A DNA stretch of 64,000 nucleotides from Sanguinoderma infundibulare (taxonomy: Eukaryota; Basidiomycota; Agaricomycetes; Polyporales; Polyporaceae), in assembly GCA_032821775.1 (NCBI GenBank), contig JAVLRN010000004.1, positions 1,364,001 through 1,428,000 of the forward strand, given 5' to 3'. Each line of letters opens with the position of its first letter. The stretch's first letter is position 1. The notes beneath the pieces are model-generated. The model saw only the letters and a list, made by a program, of their open reading frames with translations. It had not been told where the DNA came from and did not search any database. This document shows positions 22,779 through 45,275 of this stretch, piece by piece. The translations under genes and the position numbers were made by a program.

Positions 22779-22786
22779 ACCAATCG
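22779..22786. repeat. Target-site duplication, left copy (ACCAATCG)
   Basis: ACCAATCG immediately precedes the left TIR and is repeated exactly at 45268-45275 immediately after the right TIR. An 8-bp duplication matches what is known for Zisupton/KDZ-type DNA transposons. Confidence 0.9.
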
Positions 22787-23092
22787 CACCTGATCATCAC
22801 GGTCTTCCCACGTAATTAGGTTGGTATGACCAACGTCACATGACAGCCAAATAAGCCCGAAAGACGTTAAACCCCAGCACTACCAGTAATACTGCCAATA
22901 CACCCCTCCGGTATACTGTTTAAGGTAAGGATCAGCGGCCCCGCTATCAAGTTGTTATCTGGGTTACTGATAATGAGGCCATCATTGATCACAGATAACG
23001 CCAGGCGTTGAATATGAGGTTCCCGCGCATCCCGCCGGCGCCATCGCTCCCTCCCACGTCCACCGCTGCCGGACCAGTCGTGCTCGCTGTCT
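22787..23092 (+). repeat. Outer element, left TIR
   Basis: ~306 bp beginning CACCTGATCATCACGGTC; reverse complement of 44962-45267 at about 97%. Mismatches seen are all G/A or C/T. Confidence 0.92.
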
Positions 23093-23870
23093 CCGATGGT
23101 GAGCACGACTATCTCCACCGTTTCTTCACCGTTTTGTCCCGTTCTTTCGCTAACCGTACTTAACCACATCCCTAGATTACGTTTATCCATACGTTGAGCC
23201 GGTACAGCCCCCTCCACCCTCCCTGGTAACACCTCCAGAGTTCTCGACCGCAGTCAGCGCCAACTGCAGGCGTTGAGTATCGCGCCCCCTCGGCAAACTC
23301 GCTTCTCGCATCCGAGCCCACACCCGTGGGTTTCCGCCTTCCTGCCGGCGCCATCGCTCCCTCCCACATCCACCGCTGCCGGACCAGTCATGCTCGCTGT
23401 CTCCGATGGCAAGCACGACTATCTCCACCGTTTCCCAGCCGTTTGATCCCGTTCTTTCGCAAATCATAGTTACATATGTATCCACATTACATTTATCCAC
23501 ATGTTAAGCCACTACAGCCCACTCAGCCCTCCCTGGCGGCACCTTGAGAGTTCGCGACTGCAGTCAGCGCCAACCGCGGGCATTGAGTATCGCGCGCCTC
23601 ATCACATCTAGATAATCATCAAGAATGACAAGAGTGGTCAGTCCCGTTGACCTGGGGAGTGAAAAAAAAGCCCGACATGTCCATGAAATGTCCGCGGTGG
23701 GAATCAAACCCAGAGCTTCACGAGCACAGGCAGCGCTCAAAAAGACGCGTAGACCACTACGCCACGGCACCTTGTAGCACTAACGCTATCAAAAGCATAT
23801 TGAGCATTGCGGGTCCTCGGCAAACTCCCTCTTTGCGTCCCGGCCCGTGGATTCTGGATCTCGATCCCAC
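23030..23870. repeat. Tandem ~310-bp repeat array inside the outer element
   Basis: Two near-complete imperfect units (23030-~23340 and ~23342-23600; for example CCATCGCTCCCTCCCAC at 23041 and 23351) and part of a third (~23798-23870, with CCTCGGCAAACTC at its start). The first unit overlaps the inner end of the left TIR. The array is split by a ~195-bp stretch holding the tRNA-like sequence. The right end of the element shows no matching array, so the amplification happened on one side only. Confidence 0.75.
23690..23771 (-). tRNA. tRNA-like sequence (Arg-type head), probably degenerate or SINE-derived
   Basis: On the minus strand a good A box (TGGCGTAGTGG) forms a D arm with a perfect 4-bp stem (GCGT/ACGC), and a B box (GGTTTGATTCC) lies ~50 nt on with a T stem pairing at 4 of 5 positions. 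The D-arm region resembles fungal tRNA-Arg. I cannot close a 7-bp acceptor stem or a clean anticodon arm, and the spacing suggests either an intron or a degenerate copy. A tRNA-derived SINE head inserted into the repeat array is equally possible. Confidence 0.45.
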
Positions 23871-25633
23871 ATCCCGATGAACGTGAGGCGATGCTCTGTG
23901 CGCATCTGTGCACGCTCTTCTCCTCTTGTTTCCTCTGCCCATGAATCTCTCATCCCTTCGTCTTTGCTAGGTCCCTGCTCCCCACCATTCAAGATGTTTC
24001 ATGGGCCGCAGTGTTAGGCACGCTGTTCACATGCCAAGCTCCGCACCATATCCCGTCGGAACCGCTGACAGCCCCATCAAGTTCACCTCCAAAACCCTCC
24101 ACAAGGCGGCGATTCACAAGGAGCAGGATGAGAGACATCAGAGGTTTGACCATGAAGTGATAGGTAAGCTTTCTGAGGTTTTCGATTACTCTGTGTTTCT
24201 AACCATGTATCGAACGTAGGCCTTGATCAACAGAGCATTGACGCATTGAATGCTATGAAGCACCAAGGGCCACCGAGCTCCGAACCTGACCCCCTCTCTG
24301 GCCTGCAACCCATGGACGTCGATCCCCTATATGATGGAGGCGATGAGTCTGGCTATGAGACTGTTGAGGAGGATGAAGGAGACGAGGCAACCGAGATCAA
24401 CGTGCGGGACTTGCTCGGCATACGGTACATCGTGATACAGTAGCAGCTCTGCTGTTCTCCTCATTCCTCCCCTCTTCTCCGCTTCCTTGCACCTTCCAGC
24501 CATCGATACCACAAGTATCACGACAAGCGAACCTGGCGTGACTGAGTCCTTCATCAGGATGCTCACTGGAAGGCTGTGATGCCTCGTCTAGTGAAGGCGT
24601 TCGTGCGATGGCATTACCCATCGCCTCCAGATCTCCCCCAGCGTTCAATGCCTCCACAACCTACCCCCCTGTCAACTGACGCATCCACGTCAATTAACGG
24701 CGAGGATCAAGAACCTGTTCACTCTCCTTCCCCACCGCCCCCACCTTCTCTGCCGCCTCCCTCTCCTGTCGATCTTCCTCTGCCACCCCCGCCTCCTCCT
24801 CCTCCTCCTCCCCCCATCAAAGAGGGGCCATTCGAGATCAACATCTTGGATCTCAAGACTCTTGAACGCCACACTACAATCAAGTATTACGACATGTTGT
24901 CCCCCGCGGAGGCTCTTGTCCTCAATGGTTACCTGCCATCTGCCCCTGTACACCCCACCACTGCCATATCTTTCTATACGCTCGAGCTGTTTCGGACAAT
25001 CCGGCTGTTCAATGCATCGTTTAGTGTTGAAGCCTTTGCCAAAGTGATATGCTATCAGTATTGCATGCGCTTTCAGTACGATTTGCTTCATGTCCTCCTG
25101 CTAATTCTCTTTGGTAGGTATCGTATGATCGGGGAGTGCGCAATGTGTTGTCTAACGCCTTCGACATCTATCTCAATATTATTCGTGCGGTCAAGAAGGA
25201 CGTCGTCGGTGCTCTCGGGAGGGACACACCTGATTGGCGCATGCTGTATGGATGCCCCGTGTGTGGTTATGAGGTAAGTTGTCATTACGCATCTTTCGCA
25301 TCGTTGGCACGGAGCTTGACTAACTTTTGCTTAGTTGCATGGCGAGCCGCCACAGCTGTTCCGGCGAGTATATTGCATGGATGGGAACAGTTCATTGAAG
25401 CATATGCGGCCACGCGGCAGCCGCCATGTGGGCGATGATCGCGTCCTCGACGACAGCGACTACTTCCTCCCCCAGTCCTACGTCGAAGAGTTTGCCAACG
25501 AGGTCCGCATTAAACATACTGCTCAGGGTGATAATGTGGATGGCGATGGCGAGGAGTCCGCAGACTCCACTGGCGGCGTGGAGGGGGTCTCTGTGGTGTC
25601 TAGCTCGGCTCATCCGTTGCCCTCAGATCAGGA

Positions 25634-25641
25634 TGTCACCC
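25634..25641. repeat. Target-site duplication of the inner element, left copy (TGTCACCC)
   Basis: TGTCACCC here and at 38356-38363. Removing the insert with one copy rejoins the transposase frame as codons GTC ACC CTC GCT (Val-Thr-Leu-Ala). Detailed TIR matching begins 6 bp further in, so the exact element edge is slightly uncertain. Confidence 0.7.
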
Positions 25642-25647
25642 AGCTGC

Positions 25648-25952
25648 TGTTGTAGTTCTGATGTATCATAGTCCGGCTAACTCCCAGGAGCGTTTTACAA
25701 CAGGAGACAGCTAATTTGGTGATGTATCAGAACACCTCCGAGGCATCACCGGTGCCTCCGCTCGGATATCTGGCCCCCCGGCGGCTTCTCGGCAGCCTTC
25801 CTAAAGCGGTAGATGCTGATCTCGGGCTGATTGCAGCGCGCCTCCCCTTATCATACCGCACTACCGCCTGATATGGTTTCCAAATTAGGACTGCACAGCG
25901 GGATGCGCGCTTTTTGAATGTGGGCAGGGTGCGCATGATGGTCGCGCGCCAG
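25648..25952 (+). repeat. Inner element, left TIR
   Basis: Begins TGTTGTAGTTCTGATGTATC. About 75 bp inward the terminal motif returns in inverted form (TGATGTATCAGAAC, near 25720), giving a possible terminal hairpin that is present in both TIRs. Confidence 0.9.
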
Positions 25953-26040
25953 ATGCACAAGCGCAGGCCATGCGCGGGCAGGGTGTGCGTGATGGTCGTG
26001 CCTGGGATGCACGCGTGCGGGCCATGCGTGGGGCAGTGCG
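25925..26040. repeat. Subterminal ~52-bp direct repeats of the inner element
   Basis: Two imperfect head-to-tail units: AGGGTGCGCATGATGGTCGC... from ~25927 and AGGGTGTGCGTGATGGTCGT... from ~25979. Each contains GATGGTCG and GGCCATGCG. The first unit is partly inside the TIR and its start is also present at the right end (38044-38075). Repeated subterminal motifs are typical transposase-binding sites. Confidence 0.55.
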
Positions 26041-26482
26041 CGGGGAAGTGTGTACCACAGGGTGCCCACAAGGCCCATGATTGCATGCATGGGGAGCAGT
26101 TGGTGGAGAGTGTGTGCTGGGGTGCGCGCACAAAATGTATACTCAAAATGTGCACTGGACTGCTCAAATGCAATAGGCAGGGAGTGCGCGGAGCATGCAT
26201 GCGCCTCGCGCCTTCCACTATAGGCACACAGAGGGGTGTATATCATTAACTACATGCACTATTGTAATGAAGCAGGGCGATACAGGGGGGGGGAGTGATA
26301 CATGCAGGTGAGCAACTGGGAGAGATGAGAGCTTCAAGCAGGAACGCAGGGGGTCATATAAGGAGCGGCATGAAAACAGGATATACATTCGTGAGGGAGG
26401 TGAGCCCTGAATACCATCTGCAAGGCGGGCGTTACTTGCGGCGACCTCGCTTCGCGGGTTGAGGGGTTTCTTCTGCGTCCTC
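26041..26482. other. Inner-element left subterminal region, no gene
   Basis: GC-rich, with GGGTGCGC-type and GCATGCATG motifs and a G run near 26286. I see no coding potential; it is probably part of the transposition end. Confidence 0.4.
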
Positions 26483-29400
26483 TCAAACACGCTTTCTGTA
26501 AATATAAGTTCCTTTCAGGGCATTGAACATGTACAGAGGGTCAGAATACTCACCGGCCCACCCAAGCTGCCATCTGACTGCACACCCACGCCGTGTCCTT
26601 CGCAGCATTGGCCCATTTCTCATGCATTGGGGCATTGTAGTCATTGCGCGTGGAATCCGCCACTTTAAGGCCCCACCACACAAGGGAGAGCAGCACAATA
26701 CGAAGCCCGTTCTTACCTGGCCTCTTGAGCGCATCCCAGTCTCCCTGTCCCCCGATGACAGGGAGATCGCCATTACATTCACGCCATTCAGGCTGAATGG
26801 ACGCCCACCAGCTTACCCACTCCTCAGCATACTCCGCGACGTCCTCGATCTTTGGGATTTTCGTGACGTCCGCACGGAGGATGCGTAGCCAGTCCGCTAT
26901 CTGCTCTGGACGATTCTGTGTACCATAGCCTTTCGACTGTATGGTATGTTAGTGTAAAGAATTGGAGGACACGATTGTGGCGTACTCACAGAGCTTTCCC
27001 AGTTGTAGGACCGCTCAACGACCGTCCACCACTCCGCTGCCGATGCGAAGTCCGGCCCCAGCTGCAGCCGCTTCCCATCCATCCAATTGAACGTTTCATG
27101 TACCCACTGCGGCCACCCCTCCTCATTTAGAATAATCGCGGACGTACCCGACGTGTTCGTTGATGTGAAGTCCAATTGAATAGGGGCCGTGGGCTGTTGT
27201 GCAGGCTGCGACGCGACCGGCAGAGTTTGAGAAGTAGGGACATCTGTTGACGGGATGGTTGCGGGAGACGGCAAAGGGGGAGACCCTTCGGAGTGCGTGG
27301 ATGGCCCAAGGACAGGTGCGTCTTGAGGCGGAGCGGAGCTCCCGCGCTGAGTCGATTCGAGTGGCACTTCCACGGCAACTGAGTCGGCAGGCAGTGCAAT
27401 GTCAGCGGTGGGCGACTGGGGCGTAGAATCAAGCGGCAGAGGCTGAGAGGAAGACAAGGCAGGGGAGGCAGAAGATGCTGTGGGTGGCATGGTGGTTGTG
27501 TCTTTCAGCCTTGCAGAGCGGTGCAGAGGAGCAGAGGACGATGAAGCGCACGTGGCATTCCCATGCTTGGTGCCTGTGGTGGCTGGGCCCGTGGGTTGGG
27601 TGTTGACGTTGAGGCTGCGGAGGAGCGCCTGGGAGACAATCCGCCCAGTAAATGCCCTCCGCTCGTACTCGGTCGAAATACTGTAGACATAGAGCTGCTG
27701 TCGGCGCATGGTGGGACTCAGTCTCTGGAGGAACTCGTGAACCGCGTCGTGCAAGGTAAGCTCCTCCAACGCAGGTATGACCACGCCCGCTGGCACCCCT
27801 TCTCCGGCAAGAAGGTCCTCATCTTCGTCCTCGTCCTGCACGTCCTCGTCCTGCACATCCTCGTCCCGCACGTCCTCGTCCTCCATGTCCTCACCCTGCA
27901 CGCCCTCGTCCTCCATGTCCTTGTCCTCCACGTCCTCGTCCTCATCCTGCCCGCCTCCATCCTCAAAGACTTCGGCAAGCTCTTCCTCTTCCACACCCGA
28001 CTCTTCCCCACTATCTGACTTGTCTGCAGGGAGCCTATGATGCCCGCCCTTTCGAGGCTGCTTACGCGCGGCTGGCTCCTTCCCTTTGCGCGCAGCCGGC
28101 TCCTTCCCTTTGCGCGTGGCTGGCTCCTTCCCTTTGCGCGCGGCCGGCTCCTTCCCTTTGCACGCAGCGCTCATGGTGTGTTGGGCCGGCAGTGTCGGAG
28201 TGGAGATGATTGGGGAGGGGTTTTTCGAAGGGGTGTCGAGGGCAGTTAAAGTGGGAGTCAACGTAGTGCTGGTCGGCAGGGTGAGGAGGTCTGAGCGTAC
28301 ACAAGCTACAGGGTTCAACCGCGATGGGGTACTGGGGAGTGAGCCGCCACGAGCTCCCAGGTTAGCAGTTGGTGCTCGCCCCAGCTTCTCCTCTCGGGCA
28401 GCGAATTCTGTGTAAGTGTCAGCGACGTTGGACGTCAACATGGATACAAAAGTACTGACCAGAGGTCTGTGACAGGAACCTTGTAAATGACCCCATAATG
28501 TTCATCTTGAAAAGCTCGCCTTCCACCAGGTGCCAAGGTAGTGGAACGTTCCCGCCTGTCTTGCCCGTGGAGACTCTTTATAGCATTGAGGTCAGGCGCG
28601 TCATTGGAGTAAGGCATTCTCTTACATTTTCAGCTGGAACTCGCGCAGCCCCTCTTCATTGGGGATCCCAGCGATCAGCGTCAAGTAGAAGCCTGTCTTC
28701 TTCCTCAAGAAGTCCAGCATCGGCTGCATCACGCGCGCCATGCTTTCACGGGCCCTGTCTACCGCGTAAGTCCCAACCTAGCATTTAGTGATGCCAAACT
28801 TACTCCTCTTGCGCAGTCAGAGATACCTCGGTCTCAGTTCCCTCCTGCGCGTTCGCTGCCGTGGACATCTCTTTCAACTGCACCTGAAGTCCCTCCACGA
28901 CGTCTTGCGGAGCGTTTGAAATGAGTTCGTTGACGATGGTGCAATGGAAGGCGATTTTGTGAGTATCTGGGAGCCCCGCACCAGGCCACCGCCTCTCAAA
29001 CTCTTCGTCTACAGCAGATTTGTACGTGCTCATGTACAGCTGCCCAAGGGACATTGTGCGGGGGACAGGCGGGGGAGCAACTTGGTCAAACAGGTCGTGT
29101 AGGATCCCTGTCCAAGGGTCCTTGTGAGCGCGCTTCAAGGTGCTGCGGCGATAGCGGAGGTGCGCGCGTATGCGCTGGAGAGCGTTCAGGTAAATAATGT
29201 GTCTCTTGAGGTCAAAGAGAGGTGCACTCACATCTTCCGTTGTCTTTATTATTTTTCCTTTTCTCTCCAGCCCTTCGCCGTCGAGCTCAGGCTCTTCAAG
29301 CTCCACATCGGGGTCGGGATCCTTGTCGAATGGAAGGTGCCATGGAAACTCCGCCCAATACTCAGCGAAGACGTGGTCCCAAAAGTCATTCTGAGTGGCG

Positions 29401-29603
29401 CGCGGTTTGCCCTGAATCTCAGTGAAGGCCTCGAGGTACGTGCCCAGAAAGGTGTGTCGCTGCGGGGTAAAGATGGTAGGGTGCCCAGCTTTACCGCCCT
29501 TCGGCTGCCTCTTGCCCTTGTGTCGAGCTGAAGCCACCTTGGACATTTTTGCAGAGGTCGGGTATGTTGCATCAAGAATTTCTAGGTCGAGGTTCAAAGC
29601 CAT
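26483..29603 (-). CDS. Large element-encoded protein, unknown function
   Basis: Spliced gene starting at ATG 29603 (MALNLDLEILDATYPTSAK). Order of segments: a conserved-looking N region (FTPQRHTFLGTYLEAFTEIQ, DFWDHVFAEYWAEFPWHLP); a 57-nt in-frame intron (~29234-29178); LSTYKS-type helix region; GFYLTLIAGIPNEEGLREFQL; MNIMGSFTRFLSQTS; FAAREEKLGRAP; four to five ARKGKEPA repeats; an acidic EDEDV repeat; Ser/Pro-rich linkers; a C-terminal block WPQWVHETFNWM, AEWWTVVERSYNW, DWLRILRADVTKIPKIEDV, EWVSWWASIQPEWR, KNGLRIVLLSLVWWGLKV; and a short last exon ending KRV at TGA 26485-26483. Proteins of this build are common beside mushroom transposons; no enzymatic motif is seen. Roughly 900 residues; exon joints approximate. 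Confidence 0.6.
27825..27950 (-). repeat. 15-bp coding microsatellite (acidic repeat)
   Basis: Eight or so imperfect 15-bp units (CTCGTCCTGCACGTC type on the plus strand) encode the E/D-rich stretch of the large element protein. Confidence 0.75.
28065..28170 (-). repeat. 30-bp coding tandem repeat (KGKEPA)
   Basis: Four units of ~30 bp around GCTCCTTCCCTTTGCGCG encode repeated basic ARKGKEPA motifs directly before the acidic repeat of the same protein, giving it a charge-segregated low-complexity middle. Confidence 0.8.
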
Positions 29604-29795
29604 GGTCGTGTGTACCCGTCACACGTTGGGCTCGGGGAGTTGTTTGATTTTGGGCGGCCCCGTGCACGTGCGCAGCTGTAACCATGAGCCGAGCACGAGA
29701 CCCACTCCAACAGGCGCGCTGTTCGGTATGTATCCGACGCCTTGCTATCGCTCCCATGCTCAGGCTCCCCACCCCTCCCACCTGCCCTACTATCA

Positions 29796-30947
29796 ATGGT
29801 CGCCGCACACCTTTGCCGTGACTGGGACTCTACAGCCGCGTCCCTCGGCCTCACCCCCAAGCTCGACAGCCAAAACAGAGTGGTCCCCGCTGACCTGCCT
29901 GAAGACCCCAGGACTCCCCCCAACAAGCGGAAGCTCTACTTTGTCTGGGTCGGCCGCGCTGTTGGGCTTTTCCACAACTGGTGCGTGTCAGCTTCAGTGT
30001 CACACGTCTGAGATCTCACCTGTTTGGCACAGGGGCCTTGCCAGCGCCATGGTCTGTGGGTACAGTGGCGCGGCGTTCAAGGCCTTCATCGGGTTGGAGA
30101 ATGCGCAGGCTGCCTGGGAGCACGGTCCAACAGGGCGCAATGCCGGGTGGGGGACGCCGCCAGCCCCGCGCCACGCTATGCGCACCCCGGGCCTTGCCCC
30201 CCGCAACTCTCGGGATGACCAATCTGTTGGTGGCGACAAGGAGGCGGACGAGGAGCTTGCGCTTCCTGACAAGCTCGAGCATGCCACTCAGGCACCGCCC
30301 GTCCAAGTCATGGTATCCTTGGAGGACTGGCGCGACGTCCACCTCTGCAAGGACGGCGGCTACCAAGATTACGCTCACGCCCCACGCTCGCCATTGTCGG
30401 CATCCTCCACCTCCATCATCGACACCGACTCCTGGGTATCATCTGGCACTCTCACGCCCCGCACCATCGTCTCGGCCATGGAAGACCTGTCCTTCGGGGA
30501 AAGGTACAGTATTGTCGATTGCGAGTACCTACGCCTCACTGAGCTCCTCGCTAGTGGGGGCAGTTCGTCGGGCAGGGCGGCGATGGGCTCTGTGCCCAGG
30601 AACGCGAGCGCAGGGCGTTCCTCGGCTATGCATGGGGTTCTTGACAGGGCCAGCACCACAAGGAGGCAGCGCCATGATCCTGTATTTGTCGTCGTGCGGG
30701 GCGACCATCCTGGCGTGTACCTGGAGATGTAAGTCCTTTATTCTCCACTCTATAGTTGGCTAAGCTCATGTTTCTTGTCAGCGAGATTGCGCTCCAGGCC
30801 GCTGGCTCCAACCCGGCGATGAAAATTGTCTGTTTCACCTCGCTCAAGGTGGTGTGCCTGTACTTTGTCCAGCAGTACATGAATGGGAGAGTTGGCGTGC
30901 CCGTCCTCGTGGTGGATGAGGATGAGCCTGAGCTGGAGGAAATCTGA
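29796..30947 (+). CDS. Two-domain viroplasmin / RNase H1-N-like protein
   Basis: Divergent from the large gene, ~190 bp apart. Two copies of the small beta-alpha fold known from the RNase H1 N-terminus and caulimovirus viroplasmin are visible. The first is KRKLYFVWVGRAVGLFHNW, an intron (~29982-30032), then MVCGYSGAAFKAFIGLENAQAAW. The second is PVFVVVRGDHPGVYLEI, an intron (~30729-30780), then MKIVCFTSLKVVCLYFVQQYM. A ~190-residue Ser-rich linker separates them. Domains of this type bind RNA/DNA hybrids or double-stranded RNA in known cases. Stop 30945-30947, after an acidic tail (DEDEPELEEI). Start ATG 29796 is chosen as the first in-frame ATG; an upstream exon is possible. Confidence 0.65.
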
Positions 30948-31056
30948 TAGCGCATACTGTTGTATCAGTCTCTATGTGCCTGTGTATGTAAAGATGCGCA
31001 TTGTCTAATACCATGCACCCAGTTCATGAACACGCCTTTGATCCGAGTCCCTGAAT

Positions 31057-31803
31057 TTAGATAGTAGTGAATGCATCAAGGCGCGCCTCCACTGCAGCCA
31101 TTGCGTACAAGATATTATATGTAATGGACATCGTTTCCTGCCAGACATGTGAAATAACCTTCAGTGAAAGGCGTTCGAATATCTCCCCCGCCAATAGTGC
31201 TTCAAACCTGGTGAGAATGGCATCACCGTGTGATACCCATTCACCTTGCCGCTGAATAAAACATGCTATATCTTCGGGAGAAGCCTGACGCAGCGCCGCA
31301 AAGTCGCGCTGAATATCTTCCCGCAGCTGATCCAAGGAGCGAAAACCTCACGCCTGAAGGGCACTGTTGAGCAGGCGCAATTCTGCGATGAACTCGGGGT
31401 CAACAGCAGGCCCATGAGGCAGATTGAATGGGCCCTCCTGCCTGTTTGAAGTGAACTATTAGCAACGCGCCGCTGTGAAGAATAAACCAGCTTACTGAGG
31501 TCGCCCACCGAAAAGAAAGGATGTATCAACAAAAGTAGGGGATGGATTCGGGCCGCACGACTTGTCTTCAGTAGGCTTTGTCAAAGCGTTGCTTGACGAA
31601 GCAACGCTGGGTACTGTTTGAGAATGTTGCTCCCTGCACGAATATTCTGTAACCAGCTGGGGGGCCAAAATTGAGGGAGTGACTCACTGAGCCTTTATCT
31701 TCTGGCGATATCTTTGGTTGCGGGCTTGACGGAGCAATCGCCTTCACTCTTGCTTATCACTGGAAATGTCAAGTGGGTGGCCATGTGTACGACCGCTAGA
31801 CAT
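31057..31803 (-). pseudogene. Small basic-region (bZIP-like?) protein, two premature stops
   Basis: Three exons from ATG 31803 (MSSGRTHGHPLDIS). The first ends in a strongly basic helix, RRLLRQARNQRYRQKIKAQ, which resembles a bZIP basic region (an N with R/K at the expected offsets), but no leucine zipper follows. Exon 2 gives FVDTSFLFGGRP. Exon 3 gives GPFNLPHGPAVDPEF, IAELRLLNSALQA and LDQLREDIQRDFAALRQ. In-frame TGA codons lie at 31746-31744 (just before the basic helix) and 31350-31348; each could be a former CGA (Arg). Splice sites are good (GTGAGT...CAG; GTAAGC...ACAG). The function in the element may be DNA binding, but that is inference. Confidence 0.5.
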
Positions 31804-32044
31804 AGCTGGGGGAAGGAAAGAGGAATTGGGTGGAGAAGACGCGCTGAGACGCAATGAAAGCGCCGTCTCCAGGGGTCTGGTGAGACGCATCTTATTGTGC
31901 CCCATGAACTGTGCGTCTCACCTGCATCTCACCAAGTGTCTCACCAAGCGTCTTACATCCCACGGCCACACCACGCAGTATCCAGCTCACTGGTAGGCTT
32001 CAAACAGCAGCGCAAGTTGATACCAGCTCTACATGTACATGATT

Positions 32045-34008: not shown

Positions 34009-34288
34009 TTGAGATGCTGTTGAGAGCCGGGGGCGGCGGTGGAGGTGCGAAGGGAGGTGGCTGTAGAAGCGCCGGGTTGGGAATTCAACAACACGGTAGT
34101 CACGGGCACGGGGTCTGTGACTGGTCAGCGCCAACTGACTCGGACTCTGGCCTGACTGACAAGTCCTCACGTGCGACCTCACTAGTCACTGGTGCTGCTA
34201 ACTTCTTCTCTGCTCGCTCCTTCTCGGAGTCCCTGCTGCTATCCTTCCAGCCAACATTCTTGCCCTTGGCATTCTTTCCCCTGCAACA
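34009..34288. promoter_or_regulatory. Shared divergent promoter region, TET/JBP and KDZ genes
   Basis: ~280 bp between the two start codons. A pyrimidine-rich stretch (TTCTTCTCTGCTCGCTCC to TTCCAGCC) lies before the transposase ATG. No clear TATA box. The head-to-head arrangement would allow co-expression. Confidence 0.45.
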
Positions 34289-37200
34289 ATGTCCCAACGC
34301 GCTCCCAAACGTGCGCGAACCACTCTCGCCACACCGGACCCCTCCCTCACCGCCGGCTTCGAAGTATCCCTTGCGGAAGCCTTCGAAGCGGCCGCCCCTT
34401 CTCTCCTCACAGTCGATAGAGTGTCTATGGACCGCCGCCGCTTCTACCAACACGCGGTCGCCCTTCCATACTCAGGCTCCCAGTCTCCTGCACCACAGCT
34501 CCCCCCTTTTCCTGAACCTGCAATGCACGACGATCCAAACCTTTTCTTGCTACCACCCATGCACGACCATTCAGCGCACGGCGAGGAATCTGAGGGAGTG
34601 GAGGGCACGCAGAGAGCACCACGGTACATGACATCGGTGCGTCAAACAGCCTGTGTATTTTATCTCCGCACCTCACTCGCTTTAGTCCCTAGGACGAGCC
34701 TATGAAGCAGTTCATCCCAAAGAGGCAATTCTATCTGGACGAGCTGCTGCGACGCGACGGCCGAGGAGACTTTGTGGCCAGTACATGCCCCTGCTGCCTC
34801 GATCCAGCCAACGCTGCCCATGCCGCCATCCGATGTATGGCGTGTTCTCCAGGTCCGCTTCTTTGTGAGGCTTGTGCGGTGCGGCTCCATTCGAGGATGC
34901 CCCTCCATCGGGTCAAGGTGAGCCCCTCGTGATGTGTGCTTGGCTTTGGGTTAAAAGGCTCCATAGCGTTGGACCGGCATGATTTTTGAGGATGTCGCAT
35001 TGAAGGATCTCGGCCTGAAGATCCAACTTGGCCATCAAGTTGACGGTTCGCCTTGCTCGAACCCTATCCCCATGCACCGCGACTTCACCGTGCTTCATGT
35101 CAATGGCATCCATGGCGTCGCCCTATCCCTTTGTGGCTGCGACAAAGCCGGGCGCGTGGGCAACGTCGTTCAGCAACTTCTGCGTGCCGACCTTTGGCCA
35201 GCGACGGACACAGAGCCCAACACTTGCTTCTCCTTTCAACTGCTGGAGAACTATCACGTCATGAGTGTCCAGGGCAAGGTTTCCATGTACGACTACTACC
35301 GTGCACTTGAACGCATGACAGACATCATGGGGACTGTGAAGATCCAGGACCGGTACCGCGCGTTCATGCACATCGTCGCGCAGTGGCGGCACGTCAAGCT
35401 ACTCAAACGTGCTGGCCACAGCCACGATCCAACCGGCGTCGAGGGTACCAAGCCCGGTGAGCTCGCCCTTCGTTGCCCTGCATGTCCACGGCCTGGCGTC
35501 AATCTTCCGCCCAACTGGGACAAAGTTGCTGAGGATTTGAAGTATGCGCTCCCGCATGAACGTCTTGCGCGCCCTGCTAATAATGGTATTAGGTTCCTAT
35601 ACACCATATCTGTTGCGGTTGACGCATGTTTCCGCCTCAAGCGGCGCGACGTCTCTAGTGAGGAGAAAGATCCTATTCTCGGTAGCGGCTGGGGTTATTT
35701 CGTCGAAGACAAGGGCTACAAGGAAGTCCTTGCAATGTATGGTGATCAGGAAGATGTGCGCCCAACATTTCCTATTCCGGCCAACTTGCAAACACTTACT
35801 TGTTGTCAGATCTCTACCTGCACCGGGCTCTCAGCCATTGACCATGCAAACACGAAGTTTTCGAAAGGCTATGCCGCAACTGGAGTTGGAGCTGTTGTCT
35901 GCGCGCGGCATGAGTTTTGGCTGCCTGGTGGCTTGGCAGACTTGCAGAAGGGAGAGCGGTGCGCCTTTTGTACACAGTGCTTGTGTTTGTCAGTTGATTT
36001 ACGCCACAGTCGCTAGATATGTTAATATGGATTACATATTTGCGTCAGCGATGCTGGAGTACCTCGTCCTCAACAAGCTAGTCAGCTATGACATCACCTG
36101 TCAGTGGTGGAAGGGCTTGAAGGACCGCCTCGCTGCCTTTCCAAGCCGCCTCCACATCCCCCTTCCTGATGGAACAATTGGCTACGTCATCCCAAAGCTA
36201 CACTATGCGAGCCACAAGAGTGAAGGTCATTCGCCTTTCTCGCTGAACTATCGCCTTGGGTCCGCATGCTTAGATGGCGAAGGGATTGAGCGGCGTTGGT
36301 GGTGGATTCAGCCAGTAGTCAGCAGTACAAGGGTCATGGGGCCAGGCTCGTGTCAAGGTATGCTGGAGGACCAGCTGAGCTACTCAAACTGGTGCAAGAC
36401 AATCAAAATGCATAGGTGCTACATTGAATTGATGCACGATCAACAAGCTGATAGAAAATTTCAGCACGGACTCTCCGCGAACGTTTGCGCATGGCGCACC
36501 GAACTTATGTCGAGCAGAAGCATCTTTTCGAGGAGCTCACAGCGTCGCTCCTGTCGGAAAACGTGGCCAAGTGGGAGGCGGATGTGAAGGCATGGGAGAA
36601 GGATCCCTTCAACAGTGATGATCCCTATGTAGTGGCGTTCCAAGGTAAGCAATGCATGTTACTACTGTACAATGTCCCTCAAATGCTTATATCTATAAGG
36701 TATGACTGAGGCTGAGACCCTCCGTGAACTCTCCCGGGAGGAGCAACAGGCCAGCGCAATGCCTGGATTTGTCGCAGTGCATGAAGTAAGCGCTCTCGGA
36801 TTCGTGACGATGGGGCTGGAGCTGGAGGAGGTGCAGTAAGTTTAAGTAATTAAATTAGGTTCGATGCCGCCGCTGATATTTTGACATGTAGAATGCGCCT
36901 ACAGGCAGATGCCAAGGACTCCCCCCCAGGCAAGGTGGCGGAGCTTTTTGAGTGGCGTACATCGCTTCGTCGCAAAGTCCAGAAGTTCCGCGACGTGCAG
37001 AAAGTCCACATGCCAGGCGCCGCACCCATCATCGAGGCTTACGTGAACTGCCACACGGACATTGAACAGATCGAAAATGTCCGCCTAGCCATGCCATCCG
37101 AGATCAACCCCTCCCATCGGAACACCGTGTGCTCCCCGCGGATCCAGAAAATGGAGGCTAGATTGCGTGAGGCACAGTGCAGGGATGCCCTCCAGGATAT

Positions 37201-37981
37201 CCGCAACAAGCTCCACACTATCAGCCACCTGTACCGGTACAAGAAGCTGCATGTTCGCCATCAAGGCCCAAACACCTGGGCGCGCAGCGACATCGCGAGC
37301 GAGGACAAGCGCAAACTTCGCGCGGTTCACAAGTACCGCCACGCCCGACTCGCAAAGTTGGCACTGTCGGGGCCCGGGCCTTGGGAGGTAGAGCTTCGTG
37401 TCTTGAATGACAGTGATGTTCGTGGCCTAGAGGAAGACGACCCAAGCTCCGCCGCAGTGCAGCAGAGGCAGAGGCAAGCCAGCAGTAGCAAGACCGTCCC
37501 TGCTGAGGGGAGGTGAACACTTTCCTGGATATGGAGTGCCTCTGACGCGGGGGGTACAAATGTCATGGTTGACTCCCTGCGCGTTGAATGGCTGAAGGCT
37601 CGCGCTCGGGTCATGCGCTGGCATGAGGAGGTCAGGCTTCTCCCGGAGGAGATGCGCCGGGTACTAGCGAGCCACCAGCACAGCGAGGATGCATGGCTGG
37701 CGCGAGCTTCAATGCCGGCGAACAGTGTTGACTCCGCCCTGCATGAGGGCCTGGCTGCTTACGCTTACAAGCAGGTAGGCATGTACAGGATGATGAGGAG
37801 AACATTCTGGGCAACGTGTTTGCCTGACGCGCTGGCAGCTAATGGTGGTACAGGCGGGGAGTGGATAGATGATGGAGGGCTCGCGGTTTCAGTTACTGAG
37901 GAGGACGAGGTGCTCATGTTTGACCCAACAGCCATGTACGAGCTGGACGGTGAAGATTTAGAGGGCGCTATGTATACTTAG
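34289..37981 (+). pseudogene. CxC2-type KDZ transposase of the inner element, one premature stop
   Basis: About 1,050 residues over several exons. N-terminal basic lead-in (MSQRAPKRARTT); FIPKRQFYLDELLRRD; the CxC2 cysteine cluster TCPCCLDP...RCMACSPGPLLCEAC; LKDLGLKIQLGHQ; VNGIHGVALSLCGCD; SVQGKVSMYDYYRALERM; GHSHDPTGVEGTKPGELAL; the RNase H-fold core with VAVDACFRLKRRD (first Asp), KFSKGYAATGVGAVVCARH, LPGGLADLQKGERY, LVSYDITCQWW (second Asp), PKLHYASH, and DGEGIERRWWWIQPVVSSTR (Glu region). The C-terminal part runs through ADAKDSPPGKVAELFEW to LRVEWLKARARVMRW and an acidic end at 37979-37981. TGA at 37514-37516 interrupts EGR-TLSWIW, where Arg (CGA) is likely. One junction near 36410-36475 is unclear. 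Confidence 0.88.
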
Positions 37982-38043
37982 ATAGTAGTCACATTATTAT
38001 GGTCTTCTTGCCTATCCATCGCGCTGGCTTCCACATGGGCACC

Positions 38044-38348
38044 CTGGCACGCGACCATCACGCGCACCCTGCCCACATTCAAAAAGCGCGCATCCCGCTG
38101 TGCAGTCCTAATTTGGAAACCATATCAGGCGGTAGTGCGGTATGATAAGGGGAGGCGCGCTGCAATCAGCCCGAGATCAGCATCTACCGCTTTAGGAAGG
38201 CTGCCGAGAAGCCGCCGGAGGGCCAGATATCCGAGCGGAGGCACCGGTGATGCCTCGGAGGTGTTCTGATACATCACCAAATTAGCCGTCTCCTGTTGTA
38301 AAATGCTCCTGGGAGTTAGCCGGACTATGATACATCAGAACTACAACA
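38044..38348 (-). repeat. Inner element, right TIR
   Basis: Reverse complement of 25648-25952 at ~98%; the roughly five mismatches are all transitions. Followed by 7 bp (TATGGTG) and then the TGTCACCC duplication. Confidence 0.9.
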
Positions 38349-38355
38349 TATGGTG

Positions 38356-38363
38356 TGTCACCC
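38356..38363. repeat. Target-site duplication of the inner element, right copy (TGTCACCC)
   Basis: Exact copy of 25634-25641; from here the outer transposase frame resumes (VTLADAYATAHT). Confidence 0.7.
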
Positions 38364-40793
38364 TCGCTGATGCTTATGCCACAGCTCATACAGCACTTTC
38401 ACTGCAGCTCGTGGACCCCACGCCTGAGTCTGCCGATGCCCCTGCCACGCCCGCCGCTTCGTCCTTGGTGATGGGAACTGCTGCGCCTGCTGATGAACTT
38501 GTCGAGGGTGATCCGACGGACGGATGCCCGGGCGGTAGAAAGTCGTGTATGCGTAACTGGAAGGCAGCCCAGGCAGACGAGAAGAAGCGGTCATGGGATA
38601 TTTTCGATGAGAACGGTCTTTTTGTGAGTGCCTGTCCGCATGGACTGGTCTTGTGGGTGATTGACATGATCCGCAGTGGTGAACTGTGAGTGGTCTGGAC
38701 GTTCCTTTTCGTATCATTGCTGACTGTCATTTTCAGGGTGAAGTACCCACTGGCCACTGTTCATAAAATCCTCCAGGTCTTCAAGGAGCGCACCATGGGC
38801 GGGTATGACGTCGGATGCTCATTTGAGGGCACTGCTCGGCGTAGTCCTAAGGTGGGCCCGGCATTCAAGAAGCTCCAGGCGTGGCTTTGTGTCGGCGCGT
38901 TCCATGGGTACTCCCACAAGTACTCCTGCCAAGTACTTTTCCATCCTAACATGATTGATGGTATAGGTCTGGAAGACCTCAAAACGATGGAGCGGATCTT
39001 CAGCGGCTCCAATAAGCTTGCCTCCATCCTGCGCTATGCAACCGCCTATCACCGCCGTTTACTTATCGACGTCTATTTCCAGCACTGGGATGACGAACGG
39101 TATCAGAACCTCGGTAAGCTTCTTTACGACAATTACCACCAAGCCCAGCACATCGTTTCGGAGGACGGCCTTCGTCTGTCAGAGGCCATGCGCACAATGG
39201 ATCTCACCCCACAAGACCTGAAGAATTTTGCGGAGGCTGAGCGTACGTATCTTGTGTCCTTGGGTGAGGAGGATGACTGGGATCTCCACGCCATTGCCTA
39301 TGTGGAGGCAATGCAGGAGTTGAAGGCGATCAGGCAAGTTTGTGATTGCCGGCTCTGTCAGATGTTACTGATGATCTGTTTCCAGGGACCAGCTCTCGGC
39401 GGCAACGCAGTCGTTCCTAGTGACTGCGTGCAAGAACTACACCTTCTTGCCGCCCAAGCACAGTCCGACAGAGTACGCTGCTGACTTGTCCCGGATGCGT
39501 AAGGTCGAGACTGTCCGGAGACACCTAGATTGACGGGCTCAAACACTCGAGATTCGCATCGCTGAACTCAAGATTCACCTCCAGCTCTCCAAGCCGTGGA
39601 CACCGAAGAGTCCGGAGTACATCAATACTGAGCAGTACATGGCCACGCGCAAGTACCAAGACACATTGCGTAACTTGCAACGCCTTGTAGTACAGCGGCT
39701 TTTTGAGCTGCACAAGATGAATCTGGCCGGCACAGGTGAGTACGACTTCTGCCGTGTGTGTTATCTTCGTGATCTAATGTTAGGTGCAGGTTACCGCCTA
39801 TGCCAACAGATCGCGAAGAAACTCCAGACACGATCACGTGCAATCCGCAACGCACTCAATACATACAACGCCGCCGCAAAAACCGCCAATCGTCCACAAC
39901 TGGAGTGGGATAAAGTCTCCCACTACCAGTTCTTGGAGGAATTCGAGCTACTGAACGATACCTGCGCAGACATCGCGAAGCAGCTGTGGGCAAGGATACC
40001 GGTCCGGGAGACCATGTGCCTTGGTCATCGCATTGCCCGCGCTGCCGAGGAGATCAACAAGGTTCATTTACAGGCCCAAGGCATCCATACGTCTATATAA
40101 GATGAAGATCGCCTCTTTGTTGTCATCCTGGACGACCTCTGTTGCATGAAGGACCCCCTCTATGGCGCTGTGCTCGAGTATGCTACTCGCCGCCGCCAAG
40201 CAAACACTCATATCGTGGCCCACCTCCAGCAGCTCTACCAACTCCTGCAGTATGGTGGCGATGTCCGGCCAGGTGTACGTGTTGGTGCCCCCTTTCCCAT
40301 CCTATTATCTCCTTCCGAGCTTGAGGGACATATTGATGTGTCTTATCTTTCGTCGAATTCGCAGCCAGACTCCCAGGGTGATGCCATTGATACATTACAT
40401 GATTTGGATGATGAGGACGATGAGGACGTGCAGGCGGAGTTGACGGCGATTATGGACTTCATTGCGACACTAGCGTTGTAGTTATGATGTTGTATTCGAA
40501 TGGCTGAACAGTGTTTGGACTCAAAAAAAAAAATCAGACTGCCCAACCGAGCTTCATGTCCCCGCCAAGTCGCGGTAACATCCAGTCAATCGTGATTATT
40601 AGTACAGTATTCACGCCAATTCACTCGAAGAAGTGGAGGAATGGGAACAGTCGAAGCCGTGCTTGAACATGTGAGCCACCGGGAGCTGAACGAATGCTCG
40701 GCGGCACAAAAGCGCTCATCGTTCATCCATGCTTCCCATCCTCTCCTTCCCTCACCTCGTCTCTCCCTCCATCCTCACAGCATGCACTCTGAC

Positions 40794-42164
40794 ATGGCCA
40801 GCGAGCCCCAAGAACCCAAAGAACATGGCGCGATCTGGGTGATATTGGACAAGGAGGGCCCTCGGGCGCATACAGAGTGGTACGTTCTGATCGATCAACG
40901 TCTACCCCCCGATCGAGCCTGATCGATCACCTCTCTCTCTTTTGCTCTTCCTTGTCTTCTTGCTGGCAGACCTAGCAATGTGCCTAGGGGCTGCTGGCCT
41001 AATCTTCTCCCCATTGTCATCATCTGCTGAAACAAGGAGGACACAGAGATGGCGTGTCGTCTTCAAAAAGAGGTCATCGAGCAGATCGTCAACATCAACG
41101 ACCGCCAGGAGCTGCTTACCTATTTCTTTGCCTCGTCTGCGAGGACGATGTATACTGGAGCGGATCAGATTTACTCCCTGCACATTGCACATGAGAACGG
41201 TATTTATGTCGGTTGCGACTGGTGCGTTTCGGAGTCTCTTCATTTATATCTTCTTACTGTCTTACAGGGAGACCTTTGTCAACCCCAAGTGCTACCTGAA
41301 GGGCACCAAATTTGAGGTGAAACAGGTCTCGACGTTCCTTGAGGCCATCACGCACTTCACGGACAGGGATCACTTGGCCCCTCAGTACCCCACTGAACCA
41401 CCTGCTTTCCCCGACCCTTTCCCTTCTCGCTCTTCGTCTCCCGCTAAGACCGGTAATCCTCGTTCAGTGTCCCCGCAAAAAGGCCCATCTTCATCTCGTA
41501 AGAAAGATGTCAAGTTCACTACGAATGCCCCTTCCAAGGAGTCCTTCCTCCAGTCTATGTCTGCGTCGTCGGCTTCTCGTGCGCAGGCTTCCCCCACCAA
41601 GCCCTCTACCAAGCCCACCACCACTACGCTCGAGCGAGCTGCTTCCTTGCCTGGGGCGGAGTTGGGGCGCACTCGGTACCTTCTGTATAGCCAGCCCCAG
41701 CCCATCTTCAGGCCCGCGCTCCCCACATCCTCCACCAACACCATCAACGTCGCTGGTAATCTGTCAGCAACTATCAATGGTGAGCTCGTCCTCTCTTCCA
41801 TGATGACGTAGTGCTTATCTGTTATCTAGCCATTCATTTGCACAGTGAGAGCGGCGACGATGCAGGCAAGATCATCGCATTCTCTCCTGATACCCTCCAC
41901 CAAATCATCCGCCCGCCTTCCCGGGCTCTCTTTGATGCCATGAACCCCGTTCCCATCATTGACCTCGGCCATGCCATGGACATCTGGTTCACGGCCAACG
42001 ACTACGACCACCTCCAGCAACTCTATGTCATCCAGGCCTACGTCTATTCCAAGGGCATGTATGAGTTCATCACCACTGTGACCAACCCCCCCCTCTCGTT
42101 GACTACGAGGAAGGCCACACAGCTGTGGGGATGCATCCCGAGCTGGCTCGCCCCTGACCCATGA
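40794..42164 (+). CDS. Viroplasmin-like element protein (outer element)
   Basis: Spliced gene of the outer element. A probable 5' exon (MASEPQEPKEHGAIW, from 40794) ends near 40880. The main exon holds LQKEVIEQIVNINDRQELL, then YSLHIAHENGIYVGCDW, an intron (~41222-41270), and ETFVNPKCYLKGTKFEVKQV. These read as one viroplasmin/RNase H1-N-like beta-alpha fold, more divergent than in the inner element. A ~110-residue Ser/Pro/Lys-rich linker and an intron at ~41780-41830 follow, then HSESGDDAGKIIAFSPDTL, DLGHAMDIWFTANDYDHLQQL, YEFITTVTNPP, stop 42162-42164. The join of 5' exon to main exon is uncertain. Position next to the transposase, same strand, matches an accessory role in transposition or element RNA handling (inference). 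Confidence 0.55.
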
Positions 42165-42709
42165 CGCCTGGTCTGTCAGTTGCCGTCGGTCGCCATGCCT
42201 CACCTCGCGTAGCTCACAGGGTCGGCTCGCGAGCGACGTGGCCATTGCTGTCAGTAGTGGTGTACGTTCTCATGCCAATTTGTTGTACGAATATTCTGTA
42301 TATTAGCTGCAAATCTGATGTGTTACGTATGCGCATTTCTGCAGTACTTAAGCTCTGCAGTGGTAGTGTGTAAGCCTCAGGCCTCAGCCATACCCTCACC
42401 CGCCCCCACAGACCTGTCCGATCCCTCTTCTAGTTGCTCCAGTGGCTGAGGGTGGTGCCCCCATTGTCTCATTCATCGTCGTCGTGTCACTCTGATGCTT
42501 TTTGCTCTGTCGTCGTTGCTCTCGTCCCTTTGCACTTGACTTTAGACACACATCTCATGGCGGCACCCTCGTTCCGGCGTACAAGGTTATTGTTGGCTCC
42601 GCAGCGGCTCACTTTTACTGTGCATCTCATAGATCCTCCTGGTGTCCCTGGGTCCCAATTCTAATCTCGTCACCATTGCTGTGTTGTGCTGTGCTGATTG
42701 GTTGCTGTC

Positions 42710-44533
42710 ATGGCTCGTTTGCGTCTGCGGAGGGGCTCGGGCCCGCCTGACTGTTATGCCGCACGAACTCGTAAGCCGATGAAGACACGGCAAATATATC
42801 ATTGCCGTGTATCTTGGAAGCTAACCGAAATGGAGAGGTATAGTATTAACTGGCTTAGAGCTCAGCATCGCGATGATGAGAAGGTGGCACTTGAACAAGC
42901 GAGGCACGTGATGTGGGATCAGGCTGAGGCCATGCACAAGCATCTTGAGTGCCACACAACTCTCCACTACTACTGTCTCATCATGCACCAGACTCATCTC
43001 AAGGCTGGCTCCCGGAAGCATAGCCGATGGAATGCTTTCTTCAGCCTGGAGGTTGAGAAGCGCAATGCTGGTGCGTTTATTTCCTTCTTCTTTTCCTTAA
43101 CATTGGCTTATGATTTGGCAGCCCTGCCAGAGGGCGTTGAGTGGTTGGGAGTCTCAGACGGAGCCCTGACCAGGGAGATCACCGTGGTGTGGCACTTGAT
43201 GTCCAAGGAGGAGCAGATGGAGACAACAGAGGAGTGGCTGCGCAAGTTGGCGGAGCGGGCAGACAACAACAAGCACGGTTCGCATACATTCCCCATCAAT
43301 GCGTTTCATGATGCTCGGGCCACACTGGCCACCATTGACACCTTGGTACATCGCCCTTTTGTCCTCCCCCTTGTGTGCCACCCAAACCATCTGTCACCGC
43401 AGCTTGGGGATCTCTATGTCCGCACTGGCATGGAGACTTTCATGGTCAACATTCGCCCCTCCACCGCCGACTTCCTGCTTCCGCGCGTCTTCAGGTCCAG
43501 CGACCGCATCGTGGACTTCATCGTTATGGCGACTGGCAACACTGGCGAAGACCTTGCAGAGAAGATGGAGGGGTACTGCATTTCTGGTGTGCAAGGTACG
43601 CTGCGGTTTACGTTGACATCACTTTTCGCATTGACAACGTGTTGACATAGGTATCGCGTTCAACTACATTCAAAATATCTTGAACCTGAAGAAAGAGGCC
43701 ACGCGGTTGATCTTGTCATGTCTCCATCAGTTCTTCGTTCCTTCCCCCACATCCAATAACTCATGCCACAGCATTCAGGTGCTGCGTCGAAACGCAGTGA
43801 TCCTGGCCGCATGTCCTACAAGAACTTCGATGTGCACATCACCGCGTGCCTTGGCATCGTCCTCGACGCCTGGCCATTGCCAAAGTTTTGCGCCCCTGGA
43901 GAAATCTGCTCTGCACCTGAGCTCGAGACCCTCATTCACGTGTTCAAGAGCGGCCGCGCCCAGTTCCGCTCCTTGTCAGATGACGAGTGGGAAGCCTGGA
44001 AGCACAAGCGTGCTACTGGCAGCATCGAGGCATCCACTGCATCTTCTGCGGAGTCCGGCACCCTCAATGTCTCTCACCCTGCAGAAGCATCTGGCCATTC
44101 TTCAGTGGAGGTGGCCCCTGCAACGTTGCCGGCACCTGTGGACTCGCCATCTGGGACCTCGACCTCGATAGATACGCAGTCCCACAAGCACGACTGCCGT
44201 GGTGGAACCTTCATCGCCATCGACGTCGTCACCAGCCCCGATGGTCACTCGATGGCCATCACCAAGAAGACCCGGAAGCCTCGGACAGCTAAACCTCGCC
44301 CCATGTCGTCGTCGGCTCCTACCCCTTCGTCAGCTCCTGCCACGCCTTCGTCAGCTCCCACCACATCGTCATCAGCTCCCACCGCGTTGTCGTCAGTTTC
44401 CACCGCATTGTCGTCAACTCCCACGTCTTCAGCAGGTGCTGCCTTGTTGTCTGCTCGGTTTCCGGCAACCAGCCCTTCGTCATCTGCATCTCGTTCCAGG
44501 GCTGGAACCAAGCGCAAGCGCACCAGCACGTAG
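42710..44533 (+). CDS. Element-specific protein, unknown function (outer element)
   Basis: Starts at ATG 42710 (MARLRLRRGSGPPDC, basic). Five exons with good sites: KLTEMERYSINWLRAQHRDDEK, HKHLECHTTLHYYCL, RWNAFFSLEVEKRNA; intron ~43070-43121; EGVEWLGVSDGALTREITVVW, AERADNNKHGSHTF; intron ~43346-43404; LGDLYVRTGMETFMV, DFIVMATGNTGEDLAEKM; intron ~43596-43651; AFNYIQNILNLKKEATRLIL; intron ~43723-43779; MSYKNFDVHITACLGIVLDAW, PELETLIHVFKSGRAQFRSL. A C-terminal Ser/Ala/Pro-Thr repeat region (SSAPT units) ends in a basic GTKRKRTST. I know no domain name. Similar proteins accompany KDZ elements in mushrooms (recollection, not shown here). Frame intact. Confidence 0.65.
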
Positions 44534-44961
44534 ATCCCATCGGACCCATTCCCCCATTGTTTTTTCCATCCCCCCATTGTTTTTTCCTTGCACATTTTTT
44601 CTCATCCCACCTCTCATCAACATCTTCGCCCATAAGCATGTAGTTTGCGCTTGTTTACGTGTGGTTCAAAACTGTGTTTGTCGGCTATTACGTTGTTACT
44701 CGCACTGCGGACTCTAGATTAATCACATCATGTTGGTCCCTTGGCAATATTTTGATGAAAATGTGTCTGGGCTTGCGCTATCTAATAGGACGAGGGCACA
44801 GCCCATTCAGTGGAGTGCGCTTGCGTCAGGTGCCAAGATGCGTGGCCACATGTGAGAGCAAACTTGTGAGCACACAACATACCGCATCTAGCATGCGTGC
44901 AGCATTGTGGTCGTGCACACCCTGGCACCAGCCAAGCTGGGAGCACAGGTAAGAGAGAGGC
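44534..44961. other. Outer-element right subterminal region
   Basis: AT-richer 3' flank between the last element gene and the right TIR, with a doubled CCCCCATTGTTTTTTCC motif at ~44550-44590. No coding signal. Confidence 0.45.
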
Positions 44962-45267
44962 GGACGGCGAGCACGACTGGTCCGGCAGCGGTGGACATGG
45001 GAGGGAGTGATGGCACCGGCGAGATGCGCAGGAACCTCATATTCAATGCCCGGCGTTATCTGTGATCAATGATGGCCTCATTATCAGTAACCCAGATAAC
45101 AACTTGATAGCGGGGCCGCTGATCCTTACCTTAAACAGTATACCGGAGGGGTGTATTGGCAGTATTACTGGTAGTGCTGGGGTTTAACGTCTTTCGGGCT
45201 TATTTGGCTGTCATGTGACGTTGGTCATACCAACCTAATTATGTGGGAAGACCGTGATGATCAGGTG
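44962..45267 (-). repeat. Outer element, right TIR
   Basis: Reverse complement of 22787-23092; abuts the ACCAATCG duplication. Confidence 0.92.
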
Positions 45268-45275
45268 ACCAATCG
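45268..45275. repeat. Target-site duplication, right copy (ACCAATCG)
   Basis: Exact copy of 22779-22786, directly adjoining the right TIR. Confidence 0.9.

Follow-up and report, generated by a model that had tools for sequence, protein, structure and literature searches.

We report that a 64,000-bp stretch of the genome of Sanguinoderma infundibulare (contig JAVLRN010000004.1, positions 1,364,001 to 1,428,000 of the forward strand; hereafter the window) very probably harbors members of two KDZ transposon families, first a CxC1-type element (the outer element) and then, nested in it, a CxC2-type element (the inner element), which carries its own transposase together with a gene of the TET/JBP family, and for which an anti-silencing role of the TET protein is proposed. 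Enzymes of the TET family take methyl marks off DNA. The two elements are delimited by long inverted repeats, terminal (TIRs) in the outer element, and by target site duplications (TSDs):

22787..45267, outer KDZ element, CxC1 type (9,759 bp without the inner element and one copy of the inner TSD)
22779..22786, left outer TSD, ACCAATCG, an exact match to the right copy
45268..45275, right outer TSD, ACCAATCG
22787..23091, + strand, left outer TIR, starting CACCTGATCATCACGG
44963..45267, - strand, right outer TIR
25641..38355, inner KDZ element, CxC2 type (12,715 bp)
25634..25640, left inner TSD, 7 bp, TGTCACC
38356..38362, right inner TSD, 7 bp, TGTCACC
25641..25647, + strand, asymmetric left terminus CAGCTGC
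38349..38355, - strand, asymmetric right terminus, CACCATA when read inward
25648..25952, + strand, left arm of the inner inverted repeat
38044..38348, - strand, right arm of the inner inverted repeat

Self-comparison of the window yielded arms of 305 bp for both the outer element (97.0% identity, BLAST E 5e-146) and the inner one (98.4%, E 1e-152). This equal length is a coincidence, because in other copies the outer-family inverted repeats reach 615-926 bp and the inner-family ones measure about 363-435 bp. The sequence-only reading, an earlier account made from the letters of the window, had described an outer unit with long TIRs and an exact 8-bp duplication, and the present data bear this out. 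For the inner unit it was right about repeats of about 305 bp and a length of 12.7 kb; however, the 8-bp duplication TGTCACCC has to be shortened to 7 bp, since the eighth base is mismatched in two of the four inner copies and is the element's own first C. Nor are the repeats the very termini of the inner element, as had been proposed: the last 7 bp at its two ends differ at four of the seven positions from inverted repeats of each other, thus the inverted repeat begins 7 bp inside the element.

The genome (48.9 Mb, 87 contigs) was searched for further copies. The left end of the outer element has at least 23 matches genome-wide, and beyond the window these amount to at least five further loci and a 49-bp fragment on contig C2. 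As mobile outer copies we counted two-ended ones, the window included, and left out the C2 fragment as well as a single outer-type end at C3:4320323 (L016), which lies in a repeat-rich stretch about 13 kb off the contig end. The two-ended copies besides the window are C4:1246289-1256652 (C4a), C13:619201-629312, C7:789038-801032 and C4:3744743-3750414 (C4b, L015). The last is an outer-family derivative, a 5.67-kb near-perfect palindrome (99.3%) with an 8-bp TSD, in which the TIR pieces are interrupted in both arms by an insert of about 1.5 kb. An exact 8-bp TSD, at a different site each time, flanks all five two-ended outer copies, and both ends start with CACCTGATC, the exception being CACCTAATC at one end of the C7 copy. 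Three further copies of the inner element were found, one on C9 and two on C8 (C8a and C8b). All four inner copies have a 7-bp TSD at sites of their own. Each has the heptamer CAGCTGC at one end and CACCATA at the opposite end, and both heptamers lead into TGTTGTAG, except that a single arm of one copy has TGTTATAG instead. The same boundaries therefore recur in other copies of both elements, which is the check that the sequence-only reading had suggested.

The inner element lies within the transposase gene of the outer one, whose parts are as follows:

24546..25274, + strand, CxC1 region, scoring 22 bits (E 1.9e-4) against a Pfam cut-off of 26.9
25335..25640, + strand, exon with KDZ profile positions 1-48, cut by the inner element
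38363..38686, + strand, remainder of the cut exon, KDZ profile positions 50-99
38690..39481, + strand, KDZ profile positions 100-217 (135 bits)
39534..40478, + strand, C-terminal frame, interrupted by an in-frame stop at 40098-40100 that C4a and C13 do not share

The genome profile search likewise finds the KDZ profile of the outer transposase in two pieces, positions 1-48 at 25359-25514 and 51-217 at 38540-39091. C4a and C13 are uninterrupted across the insertion point and thus provide the empty site in paralogues, and the outer exon rejoined across the junction forms a single open frame of 210 codons. Because C4a and C13 read through and the rejoined exon stays open, the order of insertion is fixed: it is near certain that the inner element inserted after the outer one, into a KDZ coding exon of the outer transposase. 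The nesting already seen in the sequence-only reading is hereby borne out.

Long inverted repeats of high identity are classic points of misassembly, and it is the assembled sequence that we judge here; the inner element and the inverted repeats around it could in principle be a misjoin or a collapsed repeat, as the sequence-only reading had itself envisaged. The same ends, however, occur with different TSDs in four inner and five two-ended outer copies, and the exon is intact in two paralogues, which is a strong argument against an assembly join. Thus we consider such an artefact extremely improbable.

The TIR identities had previously been said to agree with the order of insertion, and this argument does not hold, as 9 differences in 305 positions (outer) are not distinguishable from 5 in 305 (inner; Fisher P=0.42). 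The idea behind it, that the arms make the elements datable, is reasonable; it is the resolution that is too coarse here. When the differences between the inner arms are compared with those expected from twice the private substitution rate of each copy, the window (5 observed, 4.7 expected), C9 (5 and 5.4) and C8a (25 and 27.5) fit, whereas C8b (10 and 4.1) does not. Since three of the four inner copies fit, the inner arms were probably nearly identical at the time of dispersal. We also considered that the arms cluster by side, which would leave no clock at all, and rejected it: the side-fixed columns are confined to the terminal 7 bp, and the clustering is an artefact of the heptamers.

The inner element delivers the following genes:

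34967..36013, + strand, transposase exon with CxC2 (134 bits against a cut-off of 27) and KDZ profile positions 1-101
36012..36584, + strand, transposase exon with KDZ profile positions 98-217
36854..37978, + strand, C-terminal frame of the transposase, interrupted by an in-frame stop at 37514-37516 that C9, C8b and C8a do not share
32045..33815, - strand, TET/JBP-like dioxygenase gene (predicted exons 33815-33046, 32991-32778 and 32731-32045)
26900..29618, - strand, accessory gene or genes with long open frames at 28803-29618 and 26900-28501

The KDZ domain (PF18758, cut-off 26.6) scores 67.1 and 87.8 bits in the inner and 58.7 and 135.4 bits in the outer element. In the inner transposase the CxC2 match, a cysteine cluster, lies N-terminal to this domain. 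Of the two transposases reported earlier, the inner CxC2-type one is thus confirmed, while the outer one has a weak CxC1 match and is not intact. The elements cannot be called complete either, given the split of the outer transposase and the stop in each transposase gene; because of these stops both elements of the window are probably no longer active today, or they rely on enzymes supplied by other copies.

The TET/JBP gene of the inner element was missing from the sequence-only reading. Judging by its sequence neighbours and predicted fold, it almost certainly encodes a 2-oxoglutarate- and Fe(II)-dependent dioxygenase of the TET/JBP family. The gene start is tentative, and a further in-frame intron is likely in the last predicted exon (32731-32045). 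The metal triad HxD...H is present in the double-stranded beta-helix, its first part being H105-T-D107, and the HxE of PE-type enzymes is absent. N110, five residues past the metal histidine, is invariant in 46 of 46 alignment rows, and we take its position to be that of the asparagine contacting 5-methylcytosine (5mC) in animal TET2. The Tet_JBP Pfam profile gave no match with the window sequence and matched 19 of 46 homologue rows at E<=0.1 (best 9.5e-7). Homologues form a large Agaricomycetes family (best 120 of 815 considered), the closest among those listed being from Ganoderma and Trametes. Matches of the protein to Protein Data Bank (PDB) profiles, viral capsid proteins among them (best E 0.0023), were dismissed as chance, the two alignments shown covering the charged N-terminal region.

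Transposon-borne TETs are described in PMC12730594 as being of PU, AG and PE types, of which PE has HxE and the Kyakuja-borne AG proteins keep Asp337 of CcTET. An alignment of hidden Markov models with the AG-like TET of another locus of this genome (L026), which has Asp at H+11, places Ala117 of the inner protein at the Asp337 position, albeit weakly (probability 27%, E 6.7e-4). With some doubt owing to this weak alignment, the inner TET thus appears not to be of AG type, lacking the Asp at that position; it may belong to the Zisupton-borne AG subset or to a type outside the sampling described in PMC12730594.

One would argue that the dioxygenase is a host gene acquired by chance and not a working part of the element. 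Among the four inner copies no significant synonymous excess was found in the coding stretches tested (one transposase exon even has fewer synonymous changes than expected, 6 against 11.1), and the gene has premature stops in two of them. However, of the six genome matches to the TET exon one lies in each of the four inner copies, one of which is about 6% of sites apart from the other three, and the large Agaricomycetes family of homologues also speaks against a chance acquisition. Moreover, at least 16 of the 29 Tet_JBP matches in the whole genome lie within 3 kb of a KDZ match (54 of the 87 listed KDZ matches were used for these distances), so the linkage of TET and KDZ is common in this genome. 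Therefore, we regard a chance acquisition as improbable. What seems to be a single KDZ family, with a frame of 355 or 343 codons, has at least five matches each accompanied by a Tet_JBP match 18,724-18,853 bp away:

C2:4724729-4744270, KDZ-TET locus
C10:363559-383100, KDZ-TET locus
C3:3952929-3972469, KDZ-TET locus
C18:188124-207665, KDZ-TET locus
C12:81386-100801, KDZ-TET locus

In a sixth pair, on C4, the two matches are separated by 24,880 bp; one similar Tet_JBP match, on C6, falls outside the pattern. Identity is about 99.7% among the 3.45-kb loci that surround the KDZ matches on C2, C10, C12 and C18. These data suggest a recent KDZ-TET element whose length of more than 19 kb exceeds that of the elements of the window. 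For an AG-type TET-KDZ element, a comparison of two 10-kb loci did not reveal the bounds and TSD, as the similarity runs past both.

The decay of the inner element's copies is biased towards CpG. In the 12,635 columns of the four-way alignment the window copy has 98 private changes, among them 97 transitions and 76 changes from CpG to TpG or CpA; the respective numbers are 113, 107 and 78 for C9, 86, 84 and 69 for C8b, and 571, 531 and 319 for C8a, where changes on the branch shared by the other three copies are counted too. The rate of C-to-T change in the window copy is 44-95 per 1000 sites in the NCG context, against 0-8 elsewhere. This is the pattern expected from deamination of methylated CpG and suggests that the elements are CpG-methylated. 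No inner copy is free of lesions in the frames examined: besides the transposase stop of the window copy at 37514-37516, C9 has a transposase stop, C8b has stops and a 16.1-kb insertion in the KDZ exon, and C8a has a frameshift, a stop in the TET gene and, within the CxC2 exon, an insertion of 1.45 kb. The 16.1-kb insertion (L020-L022) ends in TAGGGTG..CACCCTA with an apparent 8-bp TSD and looks hAT-like by eye; two 989-bp direct repeats inside it (99.3%) are perhaps a further nested long terminal repeat element.

The course of events was very probably the following. A CxC1-type element with an 8-bp TSD and long TIRs came first, at a site some 100 bp upstream of a gene predicted to encode a BTB domain, and a CxC2-type element with 7-bp TSDs then landed in the KDZ exon of the first transposase and split it, delivering its own transposase and the gene of the TET/JBP-family dioxygenase. 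The KDZ transposase, for which we infer cut-and-paste chemistry, would bind the ends and the repeats adjoining them on the inside, cut and rejoin, and the 7- or 8-bp gap so left would turn into the TSD. By oxidizing 5mC on the element, whether in cis or in trans, the TET protein would counter silencing of the transposase by CpG methylation. That this protein is a 5mC eraser acting for its element is probable. Alternatively, the TET-like protein could modify 6-methyladenine, RNA or thymine, or perform a glyceryl transfer as CMD1 does, and aid transposition rather than escape from silencing; the invariant N110, at the presumed 5mC-contacting position of TET2, and the decay pattern pointing to CpG methylation both argue against another substrate, which we find unlikely.

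In the comparison of the outer element with C4a (about 9.3 kb aligned after removal of the inner element, 87.8%) and C13, the CxC1 exon, the cut exon, the KDZ exon that follows it and, among the accessory frames, 41784-42161 have a synonymous excess (P 0.00 to 0.02), and therefore the outer transposase was under selection during at least part of its divergence from C4a and C13. No clear excess was found in the transposase frame 39534-40478 (P 0.06 and 0.25) or, within the other accessory region, in either of two stretches (P 0.27/0.09 and 0.04/0.10). The remaining features of the outer element are:

23018-23285 and 23329-23595, + strand, two subterminal direct repeats of about 270 bp (83%)
41784..42161, + strand, accessory reading frame (synonymous excess against C4a, 21 observed and 12.2 expected, P 0.002)
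42698..44530, + strand, accessory gene region

The accessory frame 42698-43642 has two homologues, both from Cytidiella melzeri (28% identity, E 2e-19 and 1e-18). As for the accessory frames of the inner element, 28803-29618 has no homologue at E 1e-3 in a search confined to this frame, and neither it nor 26900-28501 has a Pfam match over the cut-off. A TET gene in the outer element was sought and rejected, none of the 29 Tet_JBP matches and none of the six inner-TET-exon matches falling in its own part. A tRNA at 23690-23770 (- strand) was rejected too (none by ARAGORN; Rfam 16.4 bits against a gathering score of 47); the tRNA-like stretch is 82-83% conserved in C4a, C13 and C7. A predicted BTB/POZ frame (45374-45955, + strand; BTB_2 19.0 bits, below the cut-off of 21.4) begins about 100 bp past the end of the outer element. 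An empty outer site was not found elsewhere in the same genome, the joined flanks matching their own halves and a paralogue of the BTB gene. In the left flank there are two frames with the HET domain of heterokaryon incompatibility, 11823-12794 (- strand) and 20336-21916 (+ strand).

Among the major carriers of TET/JBP genes in mushrooms are KDZ elements, and the inner element bears on the question of whether TET protects its carrier from methylation. The several KDZ families of this one genome differ in TET type, in TSD length and in the structure of their ends, and its record of CpG decay is strong; such variety lets one test directly how TET type, methylation and the decay of copies are linked. 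In the nested pair one such element splits the transposase of another. A nested insertion would by itself be ordinary, and a limited search of literature titles and abstract openings met no prior printed nested KDZ pair. The first paper on KDZ and TET is said to be that of Iyer et al. from 2014.

Both elements were classified within KDZ from their TSDs and ends. By description, the outer element, with its 9.8 kb, TIRs of 305 bp and TSDs of 8 bp, resembles KDZ1 of Cryptococcus neoformans, for which PMC12810828 gives a KDZ core with CxC1, about 11 kb, 241-bp TIRs and 8-bp TSDs; KDZ1, however, is mobile in the laboratory, whereas the outer copy of the window is broken. Since KDZ1, KDZ2 and KDZ3 measure about 11, 9.2 and 10 kb according to the same source, our elements of 9.8 and 12.7 kb are of usual size and not giant, as they had been called. 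In two features, 8-bp TSDs and TIRs, the outer element is also like Zisupton as outlined in PMC12730594. The inner element shares 7-bp TSDs, 5'-CA..TG-3' termini and the combination of KDZ with a TET/JBP gene with the TET-positive Kyakuja of Agaricomycetes (Kojima, 2025; PMC12730594). Yet Kyakuja-1_LB and Kyakuja-2_LB are reported there as having no TIRs, whereas the inner element has inverted repeats of 305 bp (98.4%) set 7 bp inward of its asymmetric ends. In a tree of 22 KDZ sequences over 120 amino acids, built without named references, the inner transposase joins (0.96) a KDZ family of this genome with a frame of 422 codons and stands separate from the KDZs that adjoin Tet_JBP matches. 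The inner TET lacks the HxE of PE types and apparently the Asp of AG types, and compared with CcTET of Coprinopsis cinerea (PDB 7vpn, 8jkk) it is 15% identical and lacks, in a weak alignment, the Asp critical for 5mC. Thus, TET-bearing KDZ elements being already known, the nested pair is a further instance of an established kind, with an unusual variant as its inner member; tentatively, and with somewhat less than even confidence, this variant could be an undescribed KDZ lineage that combines Kyakuja-like TSDs and ends with inset long inverted repeats and a fourth type of transposon-borne TET (HxD and the invariant Asn, in place of the Asp on which AG types rely and the HxE of PE types), which would erase methylation from its own element.
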